Origin: Lachnospiraceae bacterium
GTDB taxonomy: Bacteria; Bacillota; Clostridia; Lachnospirales; Lachnospiraceae
Length of the DNA stretch: 64,000 nucleotides
Assembly (NCBI GenBank): GCA_022797535.1
Contig: JAAWKU010000020.1
Coordinates: 1-64,000, forward strand
Reading direction: 5' to 3'
The notes below the pieces were generated by a model that had not been told where the DNA came from, ran no database searches, and saw nothing but the letters and a program-made list of their open reading frames with translations. Every line of letters begins with the position of its first letter. The first letter of the stretch is position 1. The position numbers and the translations under genes were made by a program. Below, piece after piece: positions 31,240 through 54,637 of the stretch.

Positions 31240-34200
31240 CTATTTTCTCTTTACTTTTCTTCCTTTTCTTCGGATCCTCAGGGCAAAAGTTCCCCCGGAA
31301 ATCATACAGGTACCCGCGATACTGCCAATGAACAAAGGTCTGTTATAAAACCAGCGGATAAAGGCATTGGAAGAAATCAGAAAGCGGATGGGCTGCGTTT
31401 GGGTCACATTTCCGGCAGCGTCCCTGGCCAGAATATACACCGTCTGGGTATTTCCCATTTCCCTGATCTCGTATTCCACTCTGCCGTAACTCTCCGCCAG
31501 CTGTCCCTCGTCATAGCTGGCCGCCAGCGCTCCGTTTAAATAGATTTCCACCCCTTCCAGGTATATATTGTCCACTGCGTCTACACTCAGGATTCTGCCT
31601 GTTTCCGCATAGGAGCCTCCGTCCTCGATACCCCCTGTCACCACGCTGGGAGATGTCTTATCCACAACAAATTCAATATTCATCTCTTTCAGACGGTTGG
31701 TGGTATCATTGGTAGCCTGATCGACAGACTGGAGCGTTACCACATATACGCCCTCAGAATCAAAATTGCTGCCCGGGATCTCATAGTGGTACTCCTTCCA
31801 CGCAAATGTGTCCCCGCTCTCCCGAATCAAATAATCCTCATTCTGCCTGAGCACTCTCACATTGCCGTCACAGCTGTAACTGATCTCCTGGTGCTCCAGC
31901 GTGTCCACATTGATCTCCGTCACGGTCAGTCCCGGTCCCTGGTTGACATAATACTGTTCTATAACGCTCTGGGTATCCTCACCGAAAACATATACGGAGC
32001 CAAACCGGTTGACCGAGAACCAAATGCTCTCCGCTGTAATGTTTCCCGCCTTATCCGTAACAGACGCCTCCAGTGTATATAAATCATCCATTTCCGGAAC
32101 ATGCGCAAAGTCCGCAAGTTCGATGGTCTGTCCTTCTGGAGTTGGGGTACTGGAATACTCTGTTTCCACAGGCCCATGATTGACCCCCGTAACATATATC
32201 TCCAGTTCCTGGGCGTCAAAATTTTTGTCGGAGCAGGTGATCACGGGAGCAACGATACCATTGTTGGCGGACTGGTCTTGTATGCCGCTGATCTCCAGCC
32301 TGGGAGCCGTCAAATCAATTACAAACCGGTCGCCGGCATAAGCCTCCGCCGCATTGCCCGCCAGATCCACACAACTAATGTCAAAAGAGTAATCTCCGTC
32401 CACGTCAAAGGGAATCTCGCACACATACAGATCCGTGCCATTGTTCCGCCATGAAGAGGGGTTTTTTACCACCCCGTCCGGGGAATTGACTGACAGCTGC
32501 ACACCGGCGCTGTTAAAATTATGTTCCCTCACCGTAATGACTGCGTTTCTGGCCTCCTTATAATAAAAGCCATTTTGGGATTCCATGTTGTCGTAACTCA
32601 CCTGTATCACCGGCAGCGTCTGATCCACGGTAAAAGTCTCTTCCGGCAGTGCCCCGGATTCATTGCCGGCTCTGTCTGCGCACCGAAAGGTAAAGCTGTA
32701 ATCTCCATCGGCATGAAACGCCACGGGACAGGACCAGCTGCAGGCCTTCACATGCACCGTTCCGTTACAGCCATTGGCCGCCGTGTGAGACCAGTTGCCC
32801 ATCACAGGCTGTTCCCCTGTGCCTGTAACCATATATTCGGCCGTATTTTCCTCAAAGTTCTGATCCATCACCGTAACCGTGGCCACCCGGTCCTCATTAT
32901 AATACCCATTCTCTGTGATGGCATTATAGATAATATCAACTGCCGGCGCCGTCTTATCCAGAACAAAATCCCCGTTTTGGCTCCAGGCCGATGGATTGTA
33001 TTCCATACCAAACTCCCGATTATCGGACGCATCCATGGCGCGAAATACAATGTCTACCAGATTGGGATCAAAATTTGCTTCCGTGACACTGATCACCGCT
33101 GTCACATCACCCTTGACGCAATTTCCCCCGTATACCTGATCCGAAATATTCTGCCCGTTGCTGTAATAGGCAATATCCAGCACCGGCGGTGTGGTATCCA
33201 GCACCAAAATCGGACTCTTGTAGGTTCCGTCCACCAAAAGGCTGTCCTCCTCCCCTTGAAAAATCATGGCGTTTCCGGAACGGTCCGCATAGGACAGGGT
33301 AAACTGATATTTCCCTTCTCCGTCATTCATGGCAAAGTCACTTCTGTAGCGATAACCGCCCATATCCTGAAATCCGCTCATGGCTATGGTTCTGGTCGCT
33401 TCCTCCGCTCTCAATTTACTGAGCACTTCCTCCGGGTAAAAATTATTTTCCGTAATGAATACGGCCAGTTCCACTTCCCTGGTGTTGTAATAAATGGTGT
33501 TTGCATCCCTGTTATAGCCGCTGCTGCCGCCGGGAATCACATGAGACAATTCCGGCGCTTTATCGTCCAGAATATAGTCCACCGTCAGTCCGTCCGCATC
33601 CCCGTATTCCCGGATCAAAGTGGTGTTTCCGGCAACATCCGTGACCTCCACGGACTCTATGGCAAGGATTTTCTGTCCGTTTTTCACACTGAAACGAAGA
33701 CTTACCTCATCCATGGGAATCACCCTGCCATCCACCGTGACCATGGAAGAAGTCTTGATCCCGTTCTCTGTGTTTCCGTTTTCATAGGTAAACACACCTG
33801 TGCTCTCCTTGGAAGCCGCCAGGGAGCGGTCCGTGTAGCGATATACTACCTGGACCTGCTTAACCCCCGACGCGGCCTGGGAAACTGCGTCATCCGCCGC
33901 GAAATCCGCAACATATACGGTCAGATCCATCAGACTGTTATTAAACAATTTGCCGGACAATTTTCCATACTGATACTGTTCCTCCGGCGCCTGAACCTTC
34001 TGATCCTGAGCATTGTAAAAAATATCCCGATCCCCTCTGTATTTCACATAGGCCATGGAGCTGGGAGGCGTGTTATCCACCAGCATATGTACCGTGTTTT
34101 GCCCTTCTCCCCTGGTGGACAACCGATTATGCCATTGATCTTCGATCTCAAAATAATAATACTGATTCTGGTCCTGCGCAGATGCAAAGCGATCATCCCG

Positions 34201-36462
34201 GGTAACCACCCGGTAATGATAGTACCCCTCCTCATCCCGGCCTGAAATTTTCTTGCAGTCTTCTGTCAGGTCCCAACTGATCTCCGTTCCGTCCGCCAAC
34301 ACAGATATCATACGAATGCTTTTCAAGTCGGAATAGTCCTTTAAATGAAACGAATACTGCAGAGGATTCTTCTGCTCTCTGTACCAGGTCTCCCTCTGGG
34401 GCAAGCAGACAAGATCACTCATCACCGGGGGAGCCTGATCAATCACAACTTTTAGAGACTGGTTCCCACCCAGTCCATAGCTTTGCCTGTTGCCGGATTT
34501 ATCCGTAATCTCAAAAAAGAGAGGTTTATAATTGTATTTGCTGGTAGAAATTGAAAACGCAAAACGCGAATCCCCGGACTGTTGGTCGATCTGCTTCCTT
34601 TCCCCATTTTCCAGATAATAGAGGCCAACGGAAGCAAGATTCTCCTCTTTAACATCCACTGTAAAACAGATGCCGCTACCGTCCACCAGCACCTGGGGCC
34701 CTGCCACTTCCGCCGCCGGCTGCCCGGCCGCCGCCCAGGATATTTTTTCCACAGCCGGCGGCGTGCAATCCAGAATTGCCGTCAAGCCGGCCGTAGGCGC
34801 TTCCGGGGCATTACCAAGTTCGTCTTCCAGATACAACTGCAGGTCTCTGTAAGTGGTATTCTCCCTGTCCAGCCGATAGGTAAAACTATACCCGGTATAC
34901 GCTCCGCTCTCCCGCTTCTGTTCCCCCGAAAGCGTGGTTTCCCTGCCGTTCTCATCCGTATAGCGCAGTACCGCCGCTCCCATCTCATTGTCCTCGGTGA
35001 CATGGTAAACCAGAGTGATGCCCTTCTTTGCGGCTATGACTGCCTCCCCGGAGGGATCCAGTTCCCTGACAACTCCCGGTTCCTCCTCTTTCTCCCAGGT
35101 AATCCTGTTTACCCGGGGAGCCGTTTGGTCCAGAAGGTACGTGGCGCTTCCCCAGGTGGCCGTATTGCCTGCCATGTCCTCTACCAGCAGACCTACTTCC
35201 GTGTAATGCGCATCCGGTTCAGCCCCTTTCCACTCATAAACATATTCTGTTCCCGGCCCCTTCTGTTCCGGCGCCAGCCCCAATTCCTCCCGGGTAATTT
35301 CCCCGCTTTTATCTTTATAGACAATCTGCACACTGCTTATGCCATGGGCTTCCGATATATCAAAGCGCATGGAGATTCCCTCTCTGTCCTTCAGCGCCGT
35401 CCCCTCTGTCCACTCCGTATAGTTCGTTTCGCCCCTTCTCTTATAGCTGACCCCTGTAACCGCGGGCGGCGTGTTGTCCACCAGAAAACGGATTGTACAA
35501 TTCTCCCGGTTTCCCTCCCCTGCCCCGTCCATATACAGTCTCAGGGACGCGTCCCCGCCGCTGACAGATGAAACCGGGATTTCCACCGGGTCTTTTCCCA
35601 GATCATCGCAGATCTTGTCACCGCCAAGTACAAGTTCATACTTGTCAAAGGGATCTTCCGGCGTCCTTTCATATCCGGGGATCACAATTTTTCCCACATT
35701 GTAATATATTCCCTGCTCAATCCGGTCAATTATGTTCCCGCTTCTGTCCCATATCTGCAGATCCCGGCCGTATTCCGTATAGCCCCGAAATACAAATTCC
35801 GCCGTATCATCCAGTATGGCATCCCTGCTGGTCTCCACGCCGCACCACTGGGCCCTGACCTGAAAAGGCGCTTCTGACGCCCGGACGGCCTGGGGGTTCA
35901 CCGGCTGTCCGCATTGGTTGGTATAATGGAAGCGGGGTTCCGCATCCGGGTATACATCCCGCAAAGGCACATTTTCTTTTCCTCCCACGTGGATTTTGAT
36001 TTCGGCGTTCAGCGTATGCTTTTTGCTCAAAACCACTTTAGCCCCTTCATTTCCGCTCACGGTGGCCATGGCTTCAAAATAATTGTCATCTTCTTTATAA
36101 AGGATCTCCACCTGGGGCGCATCCGCCGTGATATACATGTCGTTCCCTGAGACTGTGGCTGCTTGATAAGCGTCGATGATCTCTCCGTATTGTCCGATCT
36201 GGAATACCTTTCCACCGATCACAATATCATTTCCTGACACCGACTTTTCAAACTCCTGCTGATAATCATTCTGATCCCGGTTATCTCCTTCCACCCTGAT
36301 CAGGTTCAGAAAAATCTTATAAGCAGAGCTCTGCCGGCTGTCCTCTGTATGATTTTTCGTCTCCGCCCGGGCAAAATTCTGAAATGTGCACGTGAAAATA
36401 AGAGCTGCACAGAGAATCAATGCCAGCCTTCGCCCCGTCTCCTTGTTCCATAATCCCTTCAT
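31240..36462 (-). CDS. Giant Ig-like repeat surface protein
   Basis: About 1740 residues. A signal peptide (LALILCAALIFTCTFQNFARA, split here as helix plus ARA site near residue 34) starts an extracellular protein built of about eleven Ig-like/cadherin-like modules, each introduced by a motif like VDNTPP, LDQTAP, VDKTSP. The end has one membrane helix (PLFIGSIAGTCMISGGTFAL) and a basic tail RIRRKGRKVKRK, so it is anchored by its C-terminus without an LPXTG site. The ATG at 36462, 10 bases after the previous gene's stop, is chosen; a TTG at 36480 is also in frame. Adhesin or pilus-partner roles are inferred from its place at the end of the Tad cluster. Confidence 0.85.
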   Translation of the reverse strand: MKGLWNKETGRRLALILCAALIFTCTFQNFARAETKNHTEDSRQSSAYKIFLNLIRVEGDNRDQNDYQQEFEKSVSGNDIVIGGKVFQIGQYGEIIDAYQAATVSGNDMYITADAPQVEILYKEDDNYFEAMATVSGNEGAKVVLSKKHTLNAEIKIHVGGKENVPLRDVYPDAEPRFHYTNQCGQPVNPQAVRASEAPFQVRAQWCGVETSRDAILDDTAEFVFRGYTEYGRDLQIWDRSGNIIDRIEQGIYYNVGKIVIPGYERTPEDPFDKYELVLGGDKICDDLGKDPVEIPVSSVSGGDASLRLYMDGAGEGNRENCTIRFLVDNTPPAVTGVSYKRRGETNYTEWTEGTALKDREGISMRFDISEAHGISSVQIVYKDKSGEITREELGLAPEQKGPGTEYVYEWKGAEPDAHYTEVGLLVEDMAGNTATWGSATYLLDQTAPRVNRITWEKEEEPGVVRELDPSGEAVIAAKKGITLVYHVTEDNEMGAAVLRYTDENGRETTLSGEQKRESGAYTGYSFTYRLDRENTTYRDLQLYLEDELGNAPEAPTAGLTAILDCTPPAVEKISWAAAGQPAAEVAGPQVLVDGSGICFTVDVKEENLASVGLYYLENGERKQIDQQSGDSRFAFSISTSKYNYKPLFFEITDKSGNRQSYGLGGNQSLKVVIDQAPPVMSDLVCLPQRETWYREQKNPLQYSFHLKDYSDLKSIRMISVLADGTEISWDLTEDCKKISGRDEEGYYHYRVVTRDDRFASAQDQNQYYYFEIEDQWHNRLSTRGEGQNTVHMLVDNTPPSSMAYVKYRGDRDIFYNAQDQKVQAPEEQYQYGKLSGKLFNNSLMDLTVYVADFAADDAVSQAASGVKQVQVVYRYTDRSLAASKESTGVFTYENGNTENGIKTSSMVTVDGRVIPMDEVSLRFSVKNGQKILAIESVEVTDVAGNTTLIREYGDADGLTVDYILDDKAPELSHVIPGGSSGYNRDANTIYYNTREVELAVFITENNFYPEEVLSKLRAEEATRTIAMSGFQDMGGYRYRSDFAMNDGEGKYQFTLSYADRSGNAMIFQGEEDSLLVDGTYKSPILVLDTTPPVLDIAYYSNGQNISDQVYGGNCVKGDVTAVISVTEANFDPNLVDIVFRAMDASDNREFGMEYNPSAWSQNGDFVLDKTAPAVDIIYNAITENGYYNEDRVATVTVMDQNFEENTAEYMVTGTGEQPVMGNWSHTAANGCNGTVHVKACSWSCPVAFHADGDYSFTFRCADRAGNESGALPEETFTVDQTLPVIQVSYDNMESQNGFYYKEARNAVITVREHNFNSAGVQLSVNSPDGVVKNPSSWRNNGTDLYVCEIPFDVDGDYSFDISCVDLAGNAAEAYAGDRFVIDLTAPRLEISGIQDQSANNGIVAPVITCSDKNFDAQELEIYVTGVNHGPVETEYSSTPTPEGQTIELADFAHVPEMDDLYTLEASVTDKAGNITAESIWFSVNRFGSVYVFGEDTQSVIEQYYVNQGPGLTVTEINVDTLEHQEISYSCDGNVRVLRQNEDYLIRESGDTFAWKEYHYEIPGSNFDSEGVYVVTLQSVDQATNDTTNRLKEMNIEFVVDKTSPSVVTGGIEDGGSYAETGRILSVDAVDNIYLEGVEIYLNGALAASYDEGQLAESYGRVEYEIREMGNTQTVYILARDAAGNVTQTQPIRFLISSNAFIRWFYNRPLFIGSIAGTCMISGGTFALRIRRKGRKVKRK

Positions 36463-36472
36463 TCGTCTCTCC

Positions 36473-36940
36473 CTATCCAATCCTTTCTTCTGTGTGCAGC
36501 ATCATGATATCACAAAGTATTTCCAATTTAAGCGGCGGTTTCTCCGGCTGCGCGTCGCCTTTGGTTTCTGCGTTGCCGCAATAATCCATTTGAGGAAAGG
36601 CCGTTTCCGTTTCCAACTTTACCGTTGTGGCCGGCATAACGGTATCCAGCCGGGTGGTTGTCTCCACCGGAGGAACAAAAGTCTTTTCCAGCAGCGTGGT
36701 CGCGTTCTCCTCCTGGCGGGAGACCGCGGCAGCATTTGTCTCTTCGATCTCCCGGATAGACTGACGAGCCGTAATACCCAGTTTAAAAGCAATAACATTG
36801 GCGATGCGAAACCGCCAGAACAGAAAGACCGTGAGCAGCAGACTCACGCCTCCCAGAGCCAGACATACCCCGGACACAGACTGAAAAAGAAGCACCTGCC
36901 GCTCTATCTCCGCCGTTGAAGTCAATATCCCGCTACTCAT
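36473..36940 (-). CDS. Small single-pass membrane protein in kinase operon
   Basis: A protein of 155 residues with one membrane helix (VSGVCLALGGVSLLLTVFLF, about 20-40) and a hydrophilic, Thr/Glu-rich tail (VETTTRLDTVMPATTVKLET). The ATG at 36940 overlaps the end of the kinase gene by eight bases, so translation is probably coupled. The threonine-rich tail with TTT and ATT segments could be a substrate of the upstream kinase; this is inference. No family is recognised. Confidence 0.75.
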   Translation of the reverse strand: MSSGILTSTAEIERQVLLFQSVSGVCLALGGVSLLLTVFLFWRFRIANVIAFKLGITARQSIREIEETNAAAVSRQEENATTLLEKTFVPPVETTTRLDTVMPATTVKLETETAFPQMDYCGNAETKGDAQPEKPPLKLEILCDIMMLHTEERIG

Positions 36941-38630
36941 CCCCCTTCTCCTCCTCATATGTAATATCAACCATATACCTGGCCCTGTCTATCATTTCCA
37001 GCAGTTCAGCCTTCAAATCATTAACCCGCTGGGTACCGCCGGCAAATTCGTTCCCAGCAATTCTATGGGAAATATTGTCCAGCTGCGCTGTCATGGATGC
37101 CCGGTCTACCCCTGCTGCCTTGAATTTTTCCACATAGGAGATAATCTGATAGGCCAGTTCCTTGTACATGGTCAGAGCCGTTGTGGTGTTATCCAGCTGC
37201 ACCAGATCACCGGAGGACAGTTCCGTCAGATCCGTCCAATAATCCAGATAACCGATCTGGGCGTCTCCCGCCTTATTCTCCCTGCCGATCCGGGAATAAT
37301 ATGCGGCGATCTTCCCCAGGCGTCTGGCCCTCTCCACCTTAACCTCCTCCAGGACCACGGAATTTGCCGCAATATCCAGCCACTTTGTGGCCTGGGATTT
37401 GCTGCCCTTTTCTTCGTAGTAATAATAGTAGGCCAGCCCCAGGGCATAGGCAAATTCGTCATAGGCGGCCTGATTGGTCTTAAAGACAGCCTCGTTGGTT
37501 CTCCTTCCGTCATTCCCCATCAGAATTTCCCGCAGGATCTCATCCTCCCGGGCGCTCAGAATCCCGTCTTCCAGCAGCACGTCCTCCAGCAGATAAATAT
37601 ATGCATCTGCCTGAGAGGGATTCAGTTCAACAGCCGCCCGGCATTTCTCTATCTTGTCAGTGAATGTCACACTTCCCCGGGCGTCCTGCAGATACACATT
37701 GTAATTGTCCGCCTGGGTCTGGTCCGCCAGAACATGAAAGCCTGTCCCCAGGGCAAAGAGGGTCAGGGACAATGCCGCTGCGGCAGCAAATATTCCCAAT
37801 TTCCTGTTTTGATTTTTTCTGTATTCCCTGTCCAGTTCATAATAGTGCTCCAGTGCATACATCAGTTCCGCGCAGGACTGGTATCTCTCCTCCGGATTAT
37901 CCTGGGTGCATTTGAGCAGAATCTCCTCCAGGCCGGTGGACAGCGTCCCATCGTAATGTCTGATGGGATATCGGGTATAGGGTGGTTTACAGGGATCCTG
38001 TCCTGTGATCAGATGATGAAGAGTAGCTCCCAGACAATAGATGTCCGTTCTGGCGTCGGTCTGCCCCCTGCCCCCGAACTGTTCCGGGGCGGCGTAGCCG
38101 ATGGTCCCCAGACAGGTGGTATCCGCCAGGTTCTGCTCCTTGTACTCCCGGGCGATTCCAAAATCAATCAGCACCAGATTGCCGTCCGGCTTCAGCATCA
38201 CATTGGAGGGCTTCATGTCCCGATAGATAATCGCCGGGGTTTGGGAGTGGAGATATCCCAGCACATTGCACAATTGTTTTGCCCATTTAATCACACTTTC
38301 CTGGGACTGCGCTCCAAACTCCTGTATGGCGTCCGACAGAGGTTTGCCTTCAATGTAGTCCATGACAATGATAAAGGTATCCTCATCCTCTATTACATCT
38401 ACTATGCTGGGGAGATTGTCATGCCTGAGCTTCTTCAGCATATTGGTCTCCACCGTCAGTCCCTGCTTTACCTCCTCAAAATCCAGCCTGCCATCCTTGC
38501 GGACTTCTTTGATCGCCCAGGTTTTGTTTGCCTTCTCATTGATGGCCATGTACACAACGCTCATACCGCCACGACCGATCACATTCAGTATCTTATATTT
38601 GCCGTCAACCAGCGTTCCGATTTCCAACAT
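36933..38630 (-). CDS. Transmembrane Ser/Thr protein kinase with TPR-like extracellular part
   Basis: A 565-residue Hanks-type kinase. Glycine loop IGRGGMSVVY (about 18-27), ATP lysine in WAIKEV, catalytic loop YRDMKPSNVML (Tyr in place of the usual His of HRD, Asp kept), DFG as LIDFGIA, and APEQF are present. A basic stretch and a membrane helix (about 287-307) follow, then about 255 helical residues resembling TPR-like repeats, not PASTA. It follows the PP2C gene by 15 bases and belongs to the FHA-PP2C-kinase set at the end of the Tad cluster, suggesting control of pilus activity by threonine phosphorylation. Confidence 0.93.
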   Translation of the reverse strand: MLEIGTLVDGKYKILNVIGRGGMSVVYMAINEKANKTWAIKEVRKDGRLDFEEVKQGLTVETNMLKKLRHDNLPSIVDVIEDEDTFIIVMDYIEGKPLSDAIQEFGAQSQESVIKWAKQLCNVLGYLHSQTPAIIYRDMKPSNVMLKPDGNLVLIDFGIAREYKEQNLADTTCLGTIGYAAPEQFGGRGQTDARTDIYCLGATLHHLITGQDPCKPPYTRYPIRHYDGTLSTGLEEILLKCTQDNPEERYQSCAELMYALEHYYELDREYRKNQNRKLGIFAAAAALSLTLFALGTGFHVLADQTQADNYNVYLQDARGSVTFTDKIEKCRAAVELNPSQADAYIYLLEDVLLEDGILSAREDEILREILMGNDGRRTNEAVFKTNQAAYDEFAYALGLAYYYYYEEKGSKSQATKWLDIAANSVVLEEVKVERARRLGKIAAYYSRIGRENKAGDAQIGYLDYWTDLTELSSGDLVQLDNTTTALTMYKELAYQIISYVEKFKAAGVDRASMTAQLDNISHRIAGNEFAGGTQRVNDLKAELLEMIDRARYMVDITYEEEKGDE

Positions 38631-38645
38631 GCTGACATCCTCCGG

Positions 38646-39413
38646 TCAATATGTTCTGATGGTAATTACCGAGATATTGTCCCGCTCCTGACGCTGTTTG
38701 TTCAATTCTATCAACGCCAGTTCATTCTCCTTCATGCTTTCCGCACTGACCATCCGGGAGGGCTGAAGGTACGCATAAATCTCCTCCGGCGACACCTCAT
38801 GGCGAAAGCCATCGCTGCACAGCATATAGACCACATTCTGTCCAGGGGTGCCGAAAAAAAAGTCCGGACAGACCTCCTCCGAGGCTCCCACGCACTGCAG
38901 CAGCACACTGCGTCTCGGATCCGTCTCCGCTTCCTGCCAGGTCAGCTTTCCCTGCTGCACCTCCATGGCCACCACCGTCTGATCCCGGGTCAGCAGCCGC
39001 GCCGCGCAGCCCAGTTCATAGACGCGGCTATCCCCCACATTGACAATATAATACCGCTTTTCCGTCACCAGCAAAACGGCCACCGTAGTTCCCAGATTCA
39101 CTCCGCATCCAGCCCCATAGCTTCTCAACTGCCGGTTCTGCCCGGCGATGATATTGGTCCACTCCCGCCGGATCTCCGCATCCGTAATCCCTCTGGCGCA
39201 TAAAGCAGGAAGAACCTCCAGCACCCATTGGTGGAAAGCCTTCACAACACTGGCGCTGGCCACCTCCCCCCTGTCCAGTCCTCCCATACCATCACAGAGA
39301 ACCGCAAAGGCCATCTGCTCTCCGGCACAGGAAAGAATCTTAACATTCAGACTGTCCTGATTGGTACTCTTCACCCTGCCGATATCCGTACTTGCAGAAA
39401 CAATAAATTTCAT
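38646..39413 (-). CDS. PP2C-family Ser/Thr protein phosphatase
   Basis: About 255 residues. STNQDS near the start, VLCDGMGGLDRGEVAS (about 40), VNVGDSRVY (about 126), LCSDGF (about 201) and ERDNISVITI at the end are the metal-binding and structural motifs of PP2C enzymes. It is soluble and should remove phosphate from Ser/Thr placed by the kinase just downstream. The start may be GTG 39419 or ATG 39413; GAGG upstream fits both. A gap of about 180 bases to the FHA gene contains two diverged direct repeats around TTTGAC and GTGCACTG/ATGCACTG (39478-39575). Confidence 0.93.
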   Translation of the reverse strand: MKFIVSASTDIGRVKSTNQDSLNVKILSCAGEQMAFAVLCDGMGGLDRGEVASASVVKAFHQWVLEVLPALCARGITDAEIRREWTNIIAGQNRQLRSYGAGCGVNLGTTVAVLLVTEKRYYIVNVGDSRVYELGCAARLLTRDQTVVAMEVQQGKLTWQEAETDPRRSVLLQCVGASEEVCPDFFFGTPGQNVVYMLCSDGFRHEVSPEEIYAYLQPSRMVSAESMKENELALIELNKQRQERDNISVITIRTY

Positions 39414-39591
39414 TTCCACCTTTCCTCTTCCTGCATATTTCAGGCCAGTGTGCTGTCACATGTACTTCTCACAAGTTATTTGACGAAATCTAAACTTGCC
39501 GGTGCACTGGTTCCAGCAGCTGACCGATCAACTTATCCCAGGGAAGTCGTTTGACAAAATATATACCGATGCACTGTCCTGGGGCATTGTG

Positions 39592-41310
39592 TCAATATGC
39601 TCTGAATTCAAACTCTTCATCTGCCAATCTTACCCGCATGCCATGGGTAATCTCACACTCCCGGTTGCTCTCTATCTGCTGGTTGTCCACAAAAGTATGG
39701 TTGGTAGAATTGGTATCCATCACATAAAATCTGCCGTCCCGCATCAAAAAATTGGCATGGCTGCGGCTGACAGCGGAATTGTCGCTGACGAAATAATCTA
39801 CATAGCTCTTCTCCTTCCCCACTCGGAAAACAGGCTTTGTCAGCGGAATATGCTCATCTGTCCTGATTCGGATCAGGTATGGCTGTACCATCGGTGCCGG
39901 ATTCGCCCCCAGCACAGTGGTCTCTCCCATAGCCGCTCCCCCGCCCAGTACGGTGGTTTCACCAAAATGAACCTGCATCGGCTGATTGTTCTGCGAAGGA
40001 ATGGTCGCCTGGGGCATAACGGCCTGGGACTGCGCCGTTGCCGGCGGAGTCTGGGCAAACGTCTGCTGGGGTCCGGGCTGGGTCTGGGGGACAGCCCGCG
40101 GAATTGTCTGCTGTGCCCCAGGTATGGCCACATTGGCCATGGGCTTTGCCTTCTTTCCGGATTTTCCGCCCGCTTTTTTATCCCCTTTGATGTCTGTCTT
40201 TTTCTCGGGCTTCGGCTCCTTGGGCGCTTTGCCGCCAAACAGACTGAATCCTTTTTTCTCCTTTCCCTGAGGCGCCGCCGGGGATGGCTGTGGCATTTGA
40301 GGTACCGGCGCAGAAGGTCCGCCCGGCAGAACGCCCTGGTTCATAACGGCGTTTTGCGTCGGTATCCCACTCTGGTTCACAGCGGCATTCTGCGCCGGTA
40401 CTCCGCCCTGGTTCACAGCGCCGTTTTGCGCCGGTAGTCCTCCCTGGCTCATAACGGCGTTCTGCGCCGATACTCCTCCCTGGCTCATAGCGGCGTTCTG
40501 CGTTGGTACTCCCTGGCTCATAACGGCGTTCTGCGTCGGTACTCCTCCCTGGCTCATAGCGGCGTTCTGCGTCGGTACCACACTCTGGGAAGGGGATGCG
40601 CCCCGGGGAAAAGCAGCATTCTGTACGGAGACAGCGCTCTGGGTGGTGACGGTATTCTGCCCGGATACATTATTTTGCGCCGGTTCGGCAAACTGCGTCG
40701 GAGCCTGCCGCTCTGCGGGAACCACTGCCTCATCCGGCCTTTGCGCAGGATTCTCCGCGCCTGCCTCCAATCCTTCCAGCAATAGCTGAAAATCCTCCAG
40801 CAGAAAACCTGCCGGATTGTTCAGTCTGTTGATAATCTTCCCCACATAGTCTGTGTTTTCCGTAGCATCAAACTGGGCGGAAAACATAATGCTTTTAAAC
40901 AGCATCCCCACATCCGGCGTGTCATGTACCAGCTCCATCACAGGCACACAAACCATGGATACCTCCAGAGTACTGACATTGACAAAGATCTTGTCCGCGT
41001 CATAGAGAAAGCTGCTTCTGTCCAGCATATAATCGTCCGCATTCCGCAGAGCGTTACAGATCCCCAGAAACACACCTGTCAGTCTGTGGCGGTTGACGGC
41101 GCCCTCCAGCAGTTGCTTTAGGGAAACCTTAGCCGTGATATTGAATTTTACATACCTGGTGGTATCCAGTTGTGTGTATAACGCATGAGCCACTCCGGGA
41201 ATCCTATTGTTAGTGATCATTCCCAGCGTCATGGTATCCACCTCTGCCTCAGGGGGCAATTCCGCCACCAGATAGATACTGCTCCCCTGATTTTCAAACC
41301 CATAGTTCAT
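39592..41310 (-). CDS. FHA-domain protein with DUF6382-like N-terminus and repeat linker
   Basis: A 572-residue cytoplasmic protein. The first about 190 residues resemble DUF6382. A low-complexity linker follows with QNAAMSQGGVPT-type repeats and a basic KEPKPEKKTDIKGDKK patch. Then comes a tandem GETTVLGG / GETTVLGA (about 445-465) and a C-terminal FHA domain (FRVGKEKSYVDY, SRSHANF, DTNSTNHTFVD). FHA binds phosphothreonine. The ETTVLG pair just before it resembles the phospho-accepting ETT site of GarA/OdhI, so the neighbouring kinase may phosphorylate it and fold the FHA onto it. The link to the Tad machine is by context. Confidence 0.88.
   Translation of the reverse strand: MNYGFENQGSSIYLVAELPPEAEVDTMTLGMITNNRIPGVAHALYTQLDTTRYVKFNITAKVSLKQLLEGAVNRHRLTGVFLGICNALRNADDYMLDRSSFLYDADKIFVNVSTLEVSMVCVPVMELVHDTPDVGMLFKSIMFSAQFDATENTDYVGKIINRLNNPAGFLLEDFQLLLEGLEAGAENPAQRPDEAVVPAERQAPTQFAEPAQNNVSGQNTVTTQSAVSVQNAAFPRGASPSQSVVPTQNAAMSQGGVPTQNAVMSQGVPTQNAAMSQGGVSAQNAVMSQGGLPAQNGAVNQGGVPAQNAAVNQSGIPTQNAVMNQGVLPGGPSAPVPQMPQPSPAAPQGKEKKGFSLFGGKAPKEPKPEKKTDIKGDKKAGGKSGKKAKPMANVAIPGAQQTIPRAVPQTQPGPQQTFAQTPPATAQSQAVMPQATIPSQNNQPMQVHFGETTVLGGGAAMGETTVLGANPAPMVQPYLIRIRTDEHIPLTKPVFRVGKEKSYVDYFVSDNSAVSRSHANFLMRDGRFYVMDTNSTNHTFVDNQQIESNRECEITHGMRVRLADEEFEFRAY
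40325..40620. repeat. In-frame repeats in the linker of the FHA protein
   Basis: About nine imperfect units of 33-36 bp encode peptides such as QNAAMSQGGVPT and QNAVMNQGG. All keep the reading frame. Copy number may vary between strains, altering linker length. Confidence 0.8.
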
Positions 41311-44424: not shown

Positions 44425-44832
44425 CTAAATAACCAGATATACTATAAATGATCTTGGTTTTCCTTCTACTACATGCTCACAAACTTCTGATTCCCACCAA
44501 GGGAATACCAGCTTCTCAAATATATCTACGACAGTTTGCTTTTCGTATTGCTCTTCGCAAAGAAATTCACCGTAGTTTTTTATTACAATTGCTATGTTTT
44601 CTTCTCGAATCCATGTGAGATCACAGATCCAATCCGCATACCCATCATACCCTTCTGATAGAATTGGAAACTGGAATTTGGTCGAAACCTCCGTTAAATA
44701 ATCTGAGAGGACTTTACAATTCTCCCCTTCAATTTCCACACAAAAAATATTTGGATCGTTTCTTAAATTCAACAATATTTTATCAGCATTTTTCTGGCCA
44801 ATGCAAATTATTCTATTTTTCTTTTTTATCAC
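44425..44832 (-). CDS. Barstar-like immunity protein
   Basis: A 135-residue acidic cytoplasmic protein. FPILSEGYDGYADWICDLTW (about 55-74) matches the barstar segment that covers the barnase active site, where the pattern is roughly G-x-D-x-x-x-D-C-L-x-D-L; the following IAIVIKNYGEFL fits the next strand. Barstar blocks a barnase-type ribonuclease. The neighbour directly upstream (44898-46526) ends in a barnase-like domain, so pairing is strongly supported. The start is probably GTG 44832, with GGAAAGGGG some distance upstream. The gene is AT-rich relative to its surroundings, a sign of separate acquisition. Confidence 0.82.
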   Translation of the reverse strand: MIKKKNRIICIGQKNADKILLNLRNDPNIFCVEIEGENCKVLSDYLTEVSTKFQFPILSEGYDGYADWICDLTWIREENIAIVIKNYGEFLCEEQYEKQTVVDIFEKLVFPWWESEVCEHVVEGKPRSFIVYLVI

Positions 44833-44897: not shown

Positions 44898-46526
44898 TTA
44901 TCTGATCTTCACAAAATCTGGCAAACCATTTAAGCTTGTTCCCTCTCCATAGTGGCTATCTGTATAATATATTGAGCCATCTGATCCTGTAACAAATCTC
45001 TCCCCATCTCTATTATGGCCTGGCTGACGATTATTTACATCCCACTCTTGGTATGTAATTGGGTTGCCATTCGCGTCAATTGTAGGAAGTGCATTATTTT
45101 TATTTAAGTATTGTTTTCCCGCACATGTTCCCGGTGTTTGTCCTGATACGTTCCCCGTCCATCCTGCTTTATCATATTTTTCAAAAATCTGTTGCACATT
45201 TTGAGGTAACGTATCTATTTTAACAGTTGGTATTGCTGGAGTTGGAGTACTGCTGGGAACAGGTGTCGCCGTTGGCGCAGGCGTCGCCGTTGGTGCAGGT
45301 GTCGCCGTTGGTGCAGGTGTCGCCGTTGGTGCAGGTGTCGCCGTTGGCGCAGGCGTCGCCGTTGGTGCAGGTGTCGCCGTTGGTGCAGGTGTCGCCGTTG
45401 GACCAGATGTCATTATCAATAACAGATATGCCGTAACAGCATTTCGCCATTGCTCTTCTGTCCAGTTACTGGTATCATAACTCAGTCGTATATCGTTGAT
45501 AATACTTGGATTGACACTGGCAAGGTACTCCTCCAGACCAGTGTCCTCATCATGCGAGTCGGATTCCTCATCGTCCTCCGATTCTTCTTCATCCTCCCCC
45601 TCTGCCGGTGGCGTTTCTACCGTTTCTCCAGACTGATCTCCGCCGGTGCTTCCCGGACTGACTGCCGGCTGCTTTGCCAGTGCCTGCACATCATCCCCGC
45701 CCAGCCATGCTCTTGCCCTGGTTTCCTTACAGATAACAGCTTCAAAATCCGCCCATTTAAAGAGCTGCATTACCTTCACTTTGTAATACGCAACCAGATG
45801 AATTTCATCTTGATGGTTCTTTTCAAAGATTGTGGAGCGGGTGAAATTCATGCCATCCAGGCCGCCCACCACTCCCAGGCGTTCCAAAGCCGCATTGGCC
45901 TCCGCCTTGTTATCTCCAAAATGTTTCACCATAAGAGATTTGGCCAAAGGCGCCGCGATGACATGGGACTTCAAGGTTTCCAATCCCTGTGAACCCGCCA
46001 CCGCTATAATGCTCTTGAGATATGTCATTGGATTGTCTATCACATCGCCAATCTGAGCCTCCATCTTTTCAATGGAGGCACTCACATTGGCGGCATTGGT
46101 ATCCAGATTCAACAGCGCTGCCTGAACTCCGTCGCTGGTAAGATTTCCTTCCCTGAGACTATTGTTCAAACCGCGAATTTCTGCCTCGCTGGAACTTGCG
46201 GCAGTCCCCAGAGCATTATACAGATCTCCCATTGAAGAGGCCACATTGTTCAGGCTTATGGCATTCTCCTCACCTATTGCCTGGATTTCCTGATCGAACT
46301 TACGAAGCCCGCTGATCTGATAAAAATAGGAATACTGGGTCAGTTCCTTGGTTACCGTATCCATGGCATTGGATACAAGCATCTGCGCTCTGCATATATT
46401 AACAATATTCAATATGGTAAATATCACGAACAGGAAGCCCGTAAAGGATACCACTGCCTCTACCGTGGCGGAGCCCGCCTGACGTTGTCTGATCTTCTGC
46501 AGGATACGGTTTATCATACGCCTCAT
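44898..46526 (-). CDS. TadE-like pseudopilin fused to a barnase-like ribonuclease toxin
   Basis: A 542-residue modular protein. The N-terminus (RQAGSATVEAVVSFTGFLFV) is a TadE-type prepilin segment with a membrane helix. About 300 residues of pseudopilin/helical region and an acidic stretch follow, then about eight PTATPA repeats (about 371-420). The last about 105 residues are a ribonuclease domain: YQEWDVN, GERFVTGSDGS and YYTDSHY align with barnase catalytic Glu, Arg and His, and FVKIR closes it. A barstar gene follows 65 bases on. I infer a pilus- or surface-tethered toxin processed by the prepilin peptidase of the cluster. Export of the toxin domain is not proven. Confidence 0.88.
   Translation of the reverse strand: MRRMINRILQKIRQRQAGSATVEAVVSFTGFLFVIFTILNIVNICRAQMLVSNAMDTVTKELTQYSYFYQISGLRKFDQEIQAIGEENAISLNNVASSMGDLYNALGTAASSSEAEIRGLNNSLREGNLTSDGVQAALLNLDTNAANVSASIEKMEAQIGDVIDNPMTYLKSIIAVAGSQGLETLKSHVIAAPLAKSLMVKHFGDNKAEANAALERLGVVGGLDGMNFTRSTIFEKNHQDEIHLVAYYKVKVMQLFKWADFEAVICKETRARAWLGGDDVQALAKQPAVSPGSTGGDQSGETVETPPAEGEDEEESEDDEESDSHDEDTGLEEYLASVNPSIINDIRLSYDTSNWTEEQWRNAVTAYLLLIMTSGPTATPAPTATPAPTATPAPTATPAPTATPAPTATPAPTATPAPTATPVPSSTPTPAIPTVKIDTLPQNVQQIFEKYDKAGWTGNVSGQTPGTCAGKQYLNKNNALPTIDANGNPITYQEWDVNNRQPGHNRDGERFVTGSDGSIYYTDSHYGEGTSLNGLPDFVKIR
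45256..45410. repeat. 18-bp repeat encoding the PTATPA linker
   Basis: About eight to nine units of GTCGCCGTTGGYGCAGGY on the plus strand, in frame with the toxin gene on the minus strand. The linker separates pseudopilin and nuclease domains. Such arrays change length easily. Confidence 0.92.
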
Positions 46527-52213: not shown

Positions 52214-52648
52214 TCACTCCAATTTCTGATCTATGTACTTTACATTCAAATAAGGCAACATGCTTCTATCCCCTATAATTACTTTATTTCTTCTTTCCAA
52301 AACGGATCTGCACCCATTAAAAAGTACAATACATTGTTCTTGATTTTTAGAAATTAATGTTTCCATAAATTTCATCATCATTTGGTATGTACTCTGGTTC
52401 TCTGAGTAATACAGATCAAACCATATTTCATAATCCAAATCCATATTGTACTCTTCTTTAGTTATATCCATTTTTAACGATTTATCCCTCACCCTTATGA
52501 GGAAATCGCTACAATATGCTACACATTCATGTTCATTGTTTTTTTTGATTTCAATTTCTTTTGCCAATAATTCTAATTGGTGTAAGATAAATTTTTTGAA
52601 TTCAGTAAAGTTGTTGCGATCTTGCATATATAGCACATACAATTCCAT
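52214..52648 (-). CDS. Candidate immunity protein for the CdiA-type toxin
   Basis: A 144-residue soluble protein, acidic and helix-rich, with no signal peptide and no confident family (it faintly resembles SitI/CdiI-type immunity proteins). It is extremely AT-rich compared with the pilus genes. It starts 16 bases after the stop of the toxin-bearing TadE gene, the position in which CDI and other polymorphic toxins keep the cognate immunity gene. The assignment therefore rests on position, size and composition, not on sequence identity. Confidence 0.6.
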   Translation of the reverse strand: MELYVLYMQDRNNFTEFKKFILHQLELLAKEIEIKKNNEHECVAYCSDFLIRVRDKSLKMDITKEEYNMDLDYEIWFDLYYSENQSTYQMMMKFMETLISKNQEQCIVLFNGCRSVLERRNKVIIGDRSMLPYLNVKYIDQKLE

Positions 52649-52664
52649 ATATATCTCCCTTAAT

Positions 52665-54320
52665 TCATTTTGGAAGCCACCTTTCTATATTTCCATCCTT
52701 AATAATAATCAATTCTTTTAACGTTTCTATCTCATATTCCATGAATTGATTATATAAGTCCTCCTCAGACCCAGCATAATCATCCAGGTTTAGTATTATC
52801 CTTTCTGCCTGCCTTGTCGTTTTATCTTCCACATTACTCCAAATATTCCGCACATTCCTACCATCAGGAGAATAACAGTCAAACGCTTTCCCGTCAATTA
52901 AGTAATCTGGATTAGAGCCTGCCTCTATGCCATACCCATTTCCTCCCCTTCTTTCTGGAAGCATTTCTATGTCATAGCCATATTCAGCCAGCAAATCTGC
53001 GCTTTCGTTTTGACGATCAATAGGCCTTCCATCAGGTCCTGGTCTAGAGCGTTCATAATTACCTCTTGGGGTTCCGCCTCTTGGAAGCGTTGGCTCCGTT
53101 AATAACACATTTGTAGTTTGTGGCTCCGGCGTACTGCTGGGCTTCGGCACGGGCGCAGGCGTAGGCGCAATCCAATCCCCCGGCAGACTTCCGTTCAGCA
53201 GATACTCCTGCATGTAAATATACCAGTCATCCTCCGTCCAGGTACTGGTGTCCTCGCCTTCACTGATAGCGTCCACATTAGACTGGCCGAAACGCGCGAT
53301 CATGCTGTCCCGGATTTGCTGGGGCGTTACCTCTTCCTTATCATCATCCTTTTCTTCCCCGCCCGGAATTGCAACGACTCCCAGGCCGCCAGTGGAAGCA
53401 TTCCCCCCGTTTCCCACACCGCCGGTGCCATTGCCCGCCACGATGCCTGCAAAATCCCCTGCGCCGTTATCGCCTTCTGTCCCTGTGCCGCTTTCACCAC
53501 TGCCATTCTCTTCTTCGCTGCCGCTTTCCCCGACGTCTGCAAAATGGTCACCTTCACCGCCTCCACCGGCAGACGCCCCTGCTCCTCCCAAACCTCCGGA
53601 TCCCTTTTCCCCGCTCAGGAACTGAGTGAGCTTGGTTCCCATATCGTTCAGCTTGCCCAGGACCTTCTGAATATTTCCCCCGGTACTTCGGTCAATGGCA
53701 GCGCAGACGTCGATAATCAGGTCCACATTCCGGATGAATTCGTCTGGATCGTTTACTGCTGTGGCCGCCGTCACGGTATAGTTAAACTCCGTAGGCAGAC
53801 CAAAGTTTCCGAAGATCTTGGGCAAAGGGTACCTGGCGGTAATACTGACTTCCACATTCTGATAGATGATCTTGTTGTCTATCTTTACCGCGATATCCCC
53901 TGTCTCAATCTCACGCCAGGGAATCTTGGTATTTTGGATGATGTTGGAAATCTCATTCACCGTGGCGTCCCGGATATCCGCCGTATTCATCACCAGATAG
54001 CGGTAGGGCTTGATATTGTCACCCACTCCGTTGAAGCTGTCCGCGCTCAGTTGGGTCACATTGGTATCCAGCGTGCCCGATTGATGCCCCGACTGCCGCA
54101 GAATCATGGAATAGTTGGGATCGCTTATGCATCTCGCCGCATATATGGTCCCTCTCTTCGCAGCCGCATCCAGCGTGGAATGATCGTGTATGACAAAAGA
54201 CGCCAGGATCATAAAGTAAATCACAATAATGATCAATGGCAGAATTATGACATTTTCAATTAAGGTATTGGCTTTCTCGGATCTCAGTCTCTTATATATT
54301 CTCTGTAACATTATTTTCAT
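52665..54320 (-). CDS. TadE-like pseudopilin fused to a CdiA-type tRNase-like toxin domain
   Basis: About 551 residues. A TadE-type N-terminus (RSEKANTLIENVIILPLIIIV in sequence, helix about 18-40) is followed by about 200 residues of pseudopilin domain with DAAAKRGTIYAARC. A long Gly/Ser/Glu-rich region and a Pro-rich APTPAPVPKPSSTPEP linker come next. The last about 120 residues (RQNESADLLAEYGYD, NPDYLIDGKAFDCYSP, RNIWSNV, RIILNLDD, LKELIIIKDG) match, from memory, the CdiA C-terminal tRNase group. The start is uncertain: ATG 54320 fits the prepilin leader, and GTG 54395 is also open. A candidate immunity gene follows 16 bases on. Confidence 0.85.
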   Translation of the reverse strand: MKIMLQRIYKRLRSEKANTLIENVIILPLIIIVIYFMILASFVIHDHSTLDAAAKRGTIYAARCISDPNYSMILRQSGHQSGTLDTNVTQLSADSFNGVGDNIKPYRYLVMNTADIRDATVNEISNIIQNTKIPWREIETGDIAVKIDNKIIYQNVEVSITARYPLPKIFGNFGLPTEFNYTVTAATAVNDPDEFIRNVDLIIDVCAAIDRSTGGNIQKVLGKLNDMGTKLTQFLSGEKGSGGLGGAGASAGGGGEGDHFADVGESGSEEENGSGESGTGTEGDNGAGDFAGIVAGNGTGGVGNGGNASTGGLGVVAIPGGEEKDDDKEEVTPQQIRDSMIARFGQSNVDAISEGEDTSTWTEDDWYIYMQEYLLNGSLPGDWIAPTPAPVPKPSSTPEPQTTNVLLTEPTLPRGGTPRGNYERSRPGPDGRPIDRQNESADLLAEYGYDIEMLPERRGGNGYGIEAGSNPDYLIDGKAFDCYSPDGRNVRNIWSNVEDKTTRQAERIILNLDDYAGSEEDLYNQFMEYEIETLKELIIIKDGNIERWLPK

Positions 54321-54385
54321 CCACAGGTACTTCTCTTGTGTTACGGCTCCGCCGCGTCTCCGCAGCAGAGCCACAACTGCTTCAA

Positions 54386-54637
54386 CTAGTTCCACTGACT
54401 TGCCACATCCGACTGGGTGGTATTCTCATTGCCGTTCACAATCAGACTGTTCCAGATTCCCTTCACCAACCCGGTCAGCTGATCCTTGAACGCAAATGCC
54501 AGAATCAGCACGATGCCGATAATTACCAGGGTTGCAATCAATTCCGCCCCTCCGGCCTGTTCCTTGAAAACTCGCCTAAACCAGCTGTCCACCTTGAACT
54601 TACAACAAAATGCCGCATTTCTCATCGCTGTAACCAT
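54386..54637 (-). CDS. Flp-type (type IVb) pilin
   Basis: An 83-residue small prepilin. A basic leader of about 30 residues ends near EQAGG, followed by the hydrophobic helix AELIATLVIIGIVLILAFAF, then a short polar tail. This is the layout of Flp1-like pilins in Firmicutes; the classical E-Y pair after the cut site is not clear. It is the likely major fibre subunit, cut by the peptidase at 42664. GGAGGAAGGA precedes the ATG. It lies between TadC and the toxin-bearing TadE gene. Confidence 0.83.
   Translation of the reverse strand: MVTAMRNAAFCCKFKVDSWFRRVFKEQAGGAELIATLVIIGIVLILAFAFKDQLTGLVKGIWNSLIVNGNENTTQSDVASQWN

Follow-up and report, generated by a model that had tools for sequence, protein, structure and literature searches.

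The window, a 64,000-nucleotide stretch of DNA from a gut bacterium of the Lachnospiraceae, contains a Tad operon in which the gene of a DUF6382-FHA protein is followed by those of a PP2C phosphatase and a Ser/Thr kinase. Genes located upstream on the same strand encode TadZ, TadA, two T2SF proteins, TadE, a DUF5702 protein, a prepilin peptidase, and a WG-repeat protein. The gene of a single-helix membrane protein adjoins that of the kinase. The order FHA, PP2C, kinase, membrane protein, Ig-repeat protein is conserved. The features of the locus are as follows.

39592–41310, minus strand: DUF6382-linker-FHA protein, TseJ-like, proposed reader; 572 residues; Pfam DUF6382 1.4e-16 and FHA 1.3e-12; models of both domains match folds in the PDB
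40756–41310, minus strand: DUF6382 domain, predicted pseudokinase fold; AlphaFold2 pLDDT 96; matches the pseudokinase structures of Rv3910 and EssB
39940–39963, minus strand: distal motif GETTVLGG, residues 450–457, with Thr452 and Leu455; Thr in 43 of 47 homologues
39904–39927, minus strand: proximal motif GETTVLGA, residues 462–469, with Thr464 and Leu467; Thr in 35 of 47 homologues
39595–39882, minus strand: FHA domain, starting at about residue 477; site positions K499, S515, R516, and N537; AlphaFold2 pLDDT about 98
38646–39419, minus strand: PP2C phosphatase, proposed eraser; Pfam PP2C_2 7.3e-09; NCBIfam Stp1/IreP-type 2.1e-45, below the model cut-off; metal-site motifs
36933–38630, minus strand: transmembrane Ser/Thr kinase, proposed writer; Pfam Pkinase 5.7e-47; catalytic motifs; hydrophobic helix 278–298
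38103–38123, minus strand: DTTCLGT of the kinase activation loop, resembling the substrate motif
36473–36970, minus strand: single-helix membrane protein, TseH-like; 165 residues; cytoplasmic tail with TxxL sites; no Pfam or NCBIfam family
36689–36700, minus strand: TTLL in the tail of the membrane protein, the only complete motif match of this copy
31240–36480, minus strand: large secreted protein with Ig-like repeats, TsdI/TseI-like; its gene closes the cassette; Pfam Big_3_3 5.8e-16; conserved location beside the gene of the membrane protein

The kinase retains the motifs AIK, YRDxKxxN, and DFG, with the catalytic Lys and Asp in place, and the phosphatase retains DGMGG, GDSR, and RDN. An earlier sequence-only reading, which proposed these two proteins as the writer and eraser of a phospho-switch, was correct in placing both enzymes next to the FHA gene and close to Tad genes. 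It included neither the motif-bearing membrane protein nor the identity of the N-terminal domain of the FHA protein as DUF6382.

The model of the DUF6382 domain matches the pseudokinase of Rv3910/MviN, its best fold match, and Staphylococcus aureus EssB with a Foldseek probability of 1.00. A search of PDB sequences with the DUF6382 profile gave no significant match, and the solved pseudokinases are therefore not detectable by sequence. The structural similarity suggests that DUF6382 is a pseudokinase; the domain does not appear by name in a 2025 review of bacterial pseudokinases (PMC12599244). The closest solved folds to the model of the FHA domain are those of EmbR, DgcB, OdhI, and GarA. In an alignment of 47 sequences, the phosphopeptide-site residues S515, R516, and N537 are kept in 39, 41, and 47 proteins, respectively. 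However, position 499, that of the canonical FHA arginine, is Lys in 37 of the 47 sequences and Arg in six, which is a caveat for phosphothreonine binding.

Two Tad-type proteins of the window carry toxin domains. A TadE-like protein (52665–54395, minus strand) is fused to a C-terminal CdiA_C domain (Pfam 1.5e-22) and is followed by a 144-residue open reading frame (52214–52648, minus strand), a possible immunity gene; orthologues from other loci are mostly 210–250 residues long and lack the toxin. A second Tad-type membrane protein (44898–46526, minus strand) has a C-terminal ribonuclease domain (PF00545), and its gene is followed by that of a Barstar (44425–44832, minus strand). A TSxWTExxW-like segment precedes the toxin in both proteins. 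The pair suggests that polymorphic toxins may be carried on Tad pilin-like proteins.

The threonine motif ahead of the FHA domain

The 293-residue linker of the DUF6382-FHA protein is of low complexity outside two motifs, GETTVLGG and GETTVLGA, which the sequence-only reading had noticed just ahead of the FHA domain and which translation of the open reading frame confirmed. They are the sole matches to T-x-x-[LIVM] in the linker, and ETTVL did not occur in any of 20,000 linker shuffles. A search of the genome DNA for codons specifying E-T-T-V-[LF] found six sites, compared to seven for the reversed control. The bare pentapeptide is therefore no rarity in this genome, and what is informative is solely where it lies and that it is conserved. 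Elsewhere in the linker, at 40300–40600 on the minus strand, a unit of about 12 residues is repeated imperfectly in tandem (VPTQNAAMSQGG).

Homologues were taken from whole genomes and GTDB contigs; the close homologues from GTDB contigs are mostly named Lachnospiraceae, for example [Lactobacillus] rogosae, placed in Lachnospira; its cultured strain ATCC 27753 (L185) carries the cassette. The sequence-only reading depended on the motif being conserved in orthologues, and it is: the pair is kept as FGETTVLGGGSIGETTVLD, GETTVLNEVTSGETTVLSE, GDTVVMGAEGFSEDTVVIG, and similar sequences, across many genera and with specificity for Thr. In the distal motif, the first Thr is present in 43 of the 47 aligned sequences and Leu or Met at +3 in 42, whereas the second Thr of ETT is found in only 24. 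The conserved unit is therefore [DE]-T-x-[VIL]-[LM], and its first Thr, with Leu at +3, is the probable phospho-acceptor. A hydrophobic residue at +3 from the phosphothreonine is usual in FHA ligands.

The last 60 linker residues of the 26 orthologues that have a local kinase contain 39 matches to T-x-[VILM]-[LMI], compared to a mean of 4.5 and a maximum of 13 in shuffles. By contrast, the version with Ser occurs once (2.9 expected) and the reversed pattern twice (4.4 expected). Chance is rejected as the source of the motif, and the comparisons with shuffles, Ser version, and reversed pattern argue against composition bias. Because the sequences share descent, the shuffle statistics overstate their independence, a bias mitigated by the Ser control and by the many genera represented. 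Within the clade of window-type proteins, the motif is present in 23 of the 26 linkers encoded near a window-type kinase and in three of the 11 that are not (Fisher P = 0.0005, uncorrected for relatedness). A looser motif, T-x-hydrophobic-[LIMF], usually in a single copy, is present in 36 of 39 Tad-associated DUF6382-FHA proteins from the wider family (4.5 expected; Ser version two, 4.9 expected), with no cassette kinase within the same 20 kb. A literature search with the string ETTVL returned nothing relevant, no earlier report of the threonine motif was found in the literature, and a plasmid search gave no match.

Motif arrays in membrane protein tails and the distribution of the cassette

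The juxtamembrane segment is positively charged in the family of the membrane protein, and the C-terminal tail is therefore predicted to be cytoplasmic. The tail encoded in the window is a weak example of its family, with one full motif, TTLL, and two looser TxxL sites. Tails of homologues contain up to ten copies, with five motifs in locus L096 (for example NETTVLTPDSNETTVLSPQSNETTVL), seven in L193 (GETELLNAGES...), and ten in L205 (EEATDVLKS...). Together, 37 tails contain 139 motifs, compared to 13.9 in shuffles, whereas the Ser version is at chance level (13 versus 13.0). Further tails, found by a profile of the membrane protein that takes in the tail region and thus not a fully independent set, contain 52 motifs (6.8 expected) and five Ser versions (6.8 expected). 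In a few homologues, the tail or the linker has no such motif.

The arrays are confined to few kinds of protein. Among 9,156 open reading frames from the fetched loci, 27 contain at least three [DEGNA]T-x-[VIL]-L motifs within 100 residues: 20 belong to the membrane protein family, six are FHA proteins, and one is another single-helix protein. The same scan with Ser and reversed patterns found no arrays. A second single-helix protein, encoded in a kinase-bearing locus (L189:19877-20293), has the same array and does not match the family profile. Members of the membrane protein family end in a conserved C-terminal motif, hIHTxExI (36476–36502, minus strand, in the window), where another component may dock.

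A search starting from the membrane protein found adjoining PP2C and kinase genes in 19 of 20 loci, an FHA gene in about 15, and an EssC-type ATPase in several. Genomes of one genus without an FHA gene at the locus encode FHA proteins elsewhere, several of them with the motif. A second cassette lies on contig C102 of the genome that includes the window, and its linker contains repeated EATGLLDHE units; a paralogue from the same genome (L126:2747-3967) has about ten tandem EATGLLDHE repeats ahead of its FHA domain. An EssC-like ATPase of this genome is also encoded on C102, away from the window. The genome has no WXG100 match, and it is therefore premature to regard C102 as a type VII secretion locus; co-encoded EssC-type ATPase and WXG100 proteins are absent from the window, where the locus is a Tad operon. 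The sequence-only reading proposed a switch for the Tad system, but the cassette is not Tad-specific, because it also occurs beside EssC-type ATPase genes. Tentatively, a portable cassette of kinase, PP2C, Thr-array membrane anchor, Ig-repeat surface protein, and pseudokinase-FHA reader might gate both Tad pili and type VII-like secretion, two unrelated machines of Clostridia; the length of the array would then set a multivalent, possibly clustered recruitment of the reader.

A candidate phosphothreonine circuit and competing explanations

We estimate a probability of about 70% that the genes of the operon suffice for a complete phosphothreonine circuit, in which the roles of writer, eraser, reader, and anchor are assigned as proposed here from sequence. 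The membrane kinase would act on [DE]-T-x-[VIL]-L motifs, which are similar to the activation loop of the kinase itself, and phosphorylate their first Thr both in the cytoplasmic tail of the membrane protein and in the linker immediately preceding the FHA domain. By binding pThr-x-x-Leu on the tail, the FHA domain would draw the predicted pseudokinase, DUF6382, to which it is joined, to the membrane near the Tad machine. The pair of motifs in the linker may act as competing internal ligands, similar to those of GarA and DgcB, or cross-link readers into oligomers, and the PP2C phosphatase would reset the system. That the sites are phosphorylated and bound by the FHA domain, that the reader is recruited to the membrane, and that the circuit controls the assembly or activity of Tad is what we infer for the operon. 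The circuit is supported by the excess of motifs in linkers and tails, the confinement of arrays, the presence of kinase and PP2C in 19 of 20 loci, the conserved FHA site, and the DTxx[LI]GT activation loop. The prevalence of Lys at position 499, the undocked linker of the structural model described below, the weak tail in the window, and the homologues without the motif count against it.

The sequence-only reading proposed a GarA-like switch. In a purely intramolecular form of this mechanism, the phosphorylated linker would fold onto the FHA domain of the same protein and keep other ligands out, and the membrane tail would be unrelated. The tandem motif lies N-terminal to the FHA domain, as do the sites of GarA, OdhI, and DgcB. 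About 25 residues separate Thr452 from the first FHA strand, which is probably sufficient reach, and about 13 separate Thr464 from it; binding in cis would therefore be easier for the distal, better conserved site. AlphaFold2, run on the unphosphorylated protein, left the linker disordered and undocked, and docking in cis was not seen. Self-binding is plausible but incomplete, because the membrane proteins carry arrays of the same motif and several loci keep the FHA domain and the tail array without any linker motif; as the whole story it is unlikely. The loci that have six to ten sites in the tail but none in the linker (L204-L208, L217, and L218), most of which are cut by contig ends, suggest that docking in trans is the more basic function.

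Slightly less probable still is a role of the motif in docking to the kinase or as a pseudosubstrate that engages the active site by mimicking the activation loop, with FHA binding incidental. The motif closely resembles DTTCLGT, and nearly all recovered activation loops of cassette kinases have the form DTxx[LI]GT, as in DTTCLGTxGYAAPEQ; it is plausible that the kinase accepts an activation-loop-like site in other proteins. However, single T-x-x-L motifs persist ahead of the FHA domain in the widespread Tad-associated relatives described above (36 of 39), which have no cassette kinase within the same 20 kb, and Leu at +3 fits FHA ligands. There is little to recommend another FHA protein, either a second small DUF6382-FHA protein or the FHA domain of EssC, as the reader of the tail and linker sites: C102 and other loci do encode additional FHA proteins and EssC-type ATPases, but the only FHA gene of the window operon is that of the DUF6382-FHA protein, in which the site residues are conserved. 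Least probable of all is a linear motif unrelated to phosphorylation, such as a structural repeat or a processing or degradation signal. In its favor, tail repeats can be near-identical (L193 and L205), as repeat expansion would produce; the strict preference for Thr over Ser and the sharing of the motif among the kinase loop, the FHA linker, and a kinase-adjacent protein count against it.

Comparison with known systems

The components of the cassette resemble TseD, F, H, I, and J of the T7SSe and T7SSf systems, which comprise a kinase, a PP2C phosphatase, a single-helix protein with a short cytoplasmic region, a large Ig-like protein, and a DUF6382-FHA protein (Garrett et al. 2024, PMC11217815). 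The correspondence is one of architecture and order, made from the published description rather than from sequences; the protein from the window has the TseJ-type arrangement of N-terminal DUF6382 and C-terminal FHA. By contrast, the cassette described here lies in a Tad operon, in a genome without WXG100 matches. The parts of that survey drawn on here describe neither the Thr motif nor the array, and the survey could only suggest regulation by threonine phosphorylation (PMC11217815). If correct, the circuit would provide a phosphosite code in which writer, eraser, reader, and anchor all have names, valid for the Tad pili of gut Clostridia and for related secretion loci. It would predict residues to mutate, offer a role for the single-helix H protein, and suggest that DUF6382 is a pseudokinase. 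In the threonine phosphorylation pathway of the type VI secretion system of A. tumefaciens, as summarized in the same survey, a membrane kinase phosphorylates a membrane component and thereby favors the binding of this component to an FHA protein (PMC11217815); the secretion machine is unrelated.

The FHA domains of DgcB and OdhI/GarA read a Thr that is phosphorylated in the N-terminal tail of these same proteins (PMC6733907, PMC8546545). GarA and OdhI of Actinobacteria share with the protein studied here an FHA domain and an N-terminal Thr site, which in their case is an ETT phosphorylated by Ser/Thr kinases. The signature ETTS(V/F) is absent from the protein, which instead has ETTVL in tandem with a nearly invariant first Thr and Leu at +3, and its score with the NCBIfam OdhI model is 27 bits, compared to a cut-off of 200. 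It also differs in its fused predicted pseudokinase, its Tad operon, and the matching sites on a membrane partner, and nothing points to a metabolic enzyme as the target. DgcB of Bdellovibrio, an FHA-GGDEF protein, recognizes a Thr near its N terminus once this is phosphorylated, either in cis or in trans; however, its output domain is a diguanylate cyclase, it has a single site, and its kinase has not been identified (PMC6733907). The nearest logic is that of mycobacteria, in which PknB phosphorylates the tail of MviN (Rv3910), which recruits the FHA protein FhaA (PMC12599244). Both arrangements involve phosphorylation of a membrane protein by a kinase, recruitment of an FHA protein, and a pseudokinase; however, the mycobacterial pseudokinase is part of the phosphorylated membrane protein, whereas the one predicted here is part of the FHA reader.
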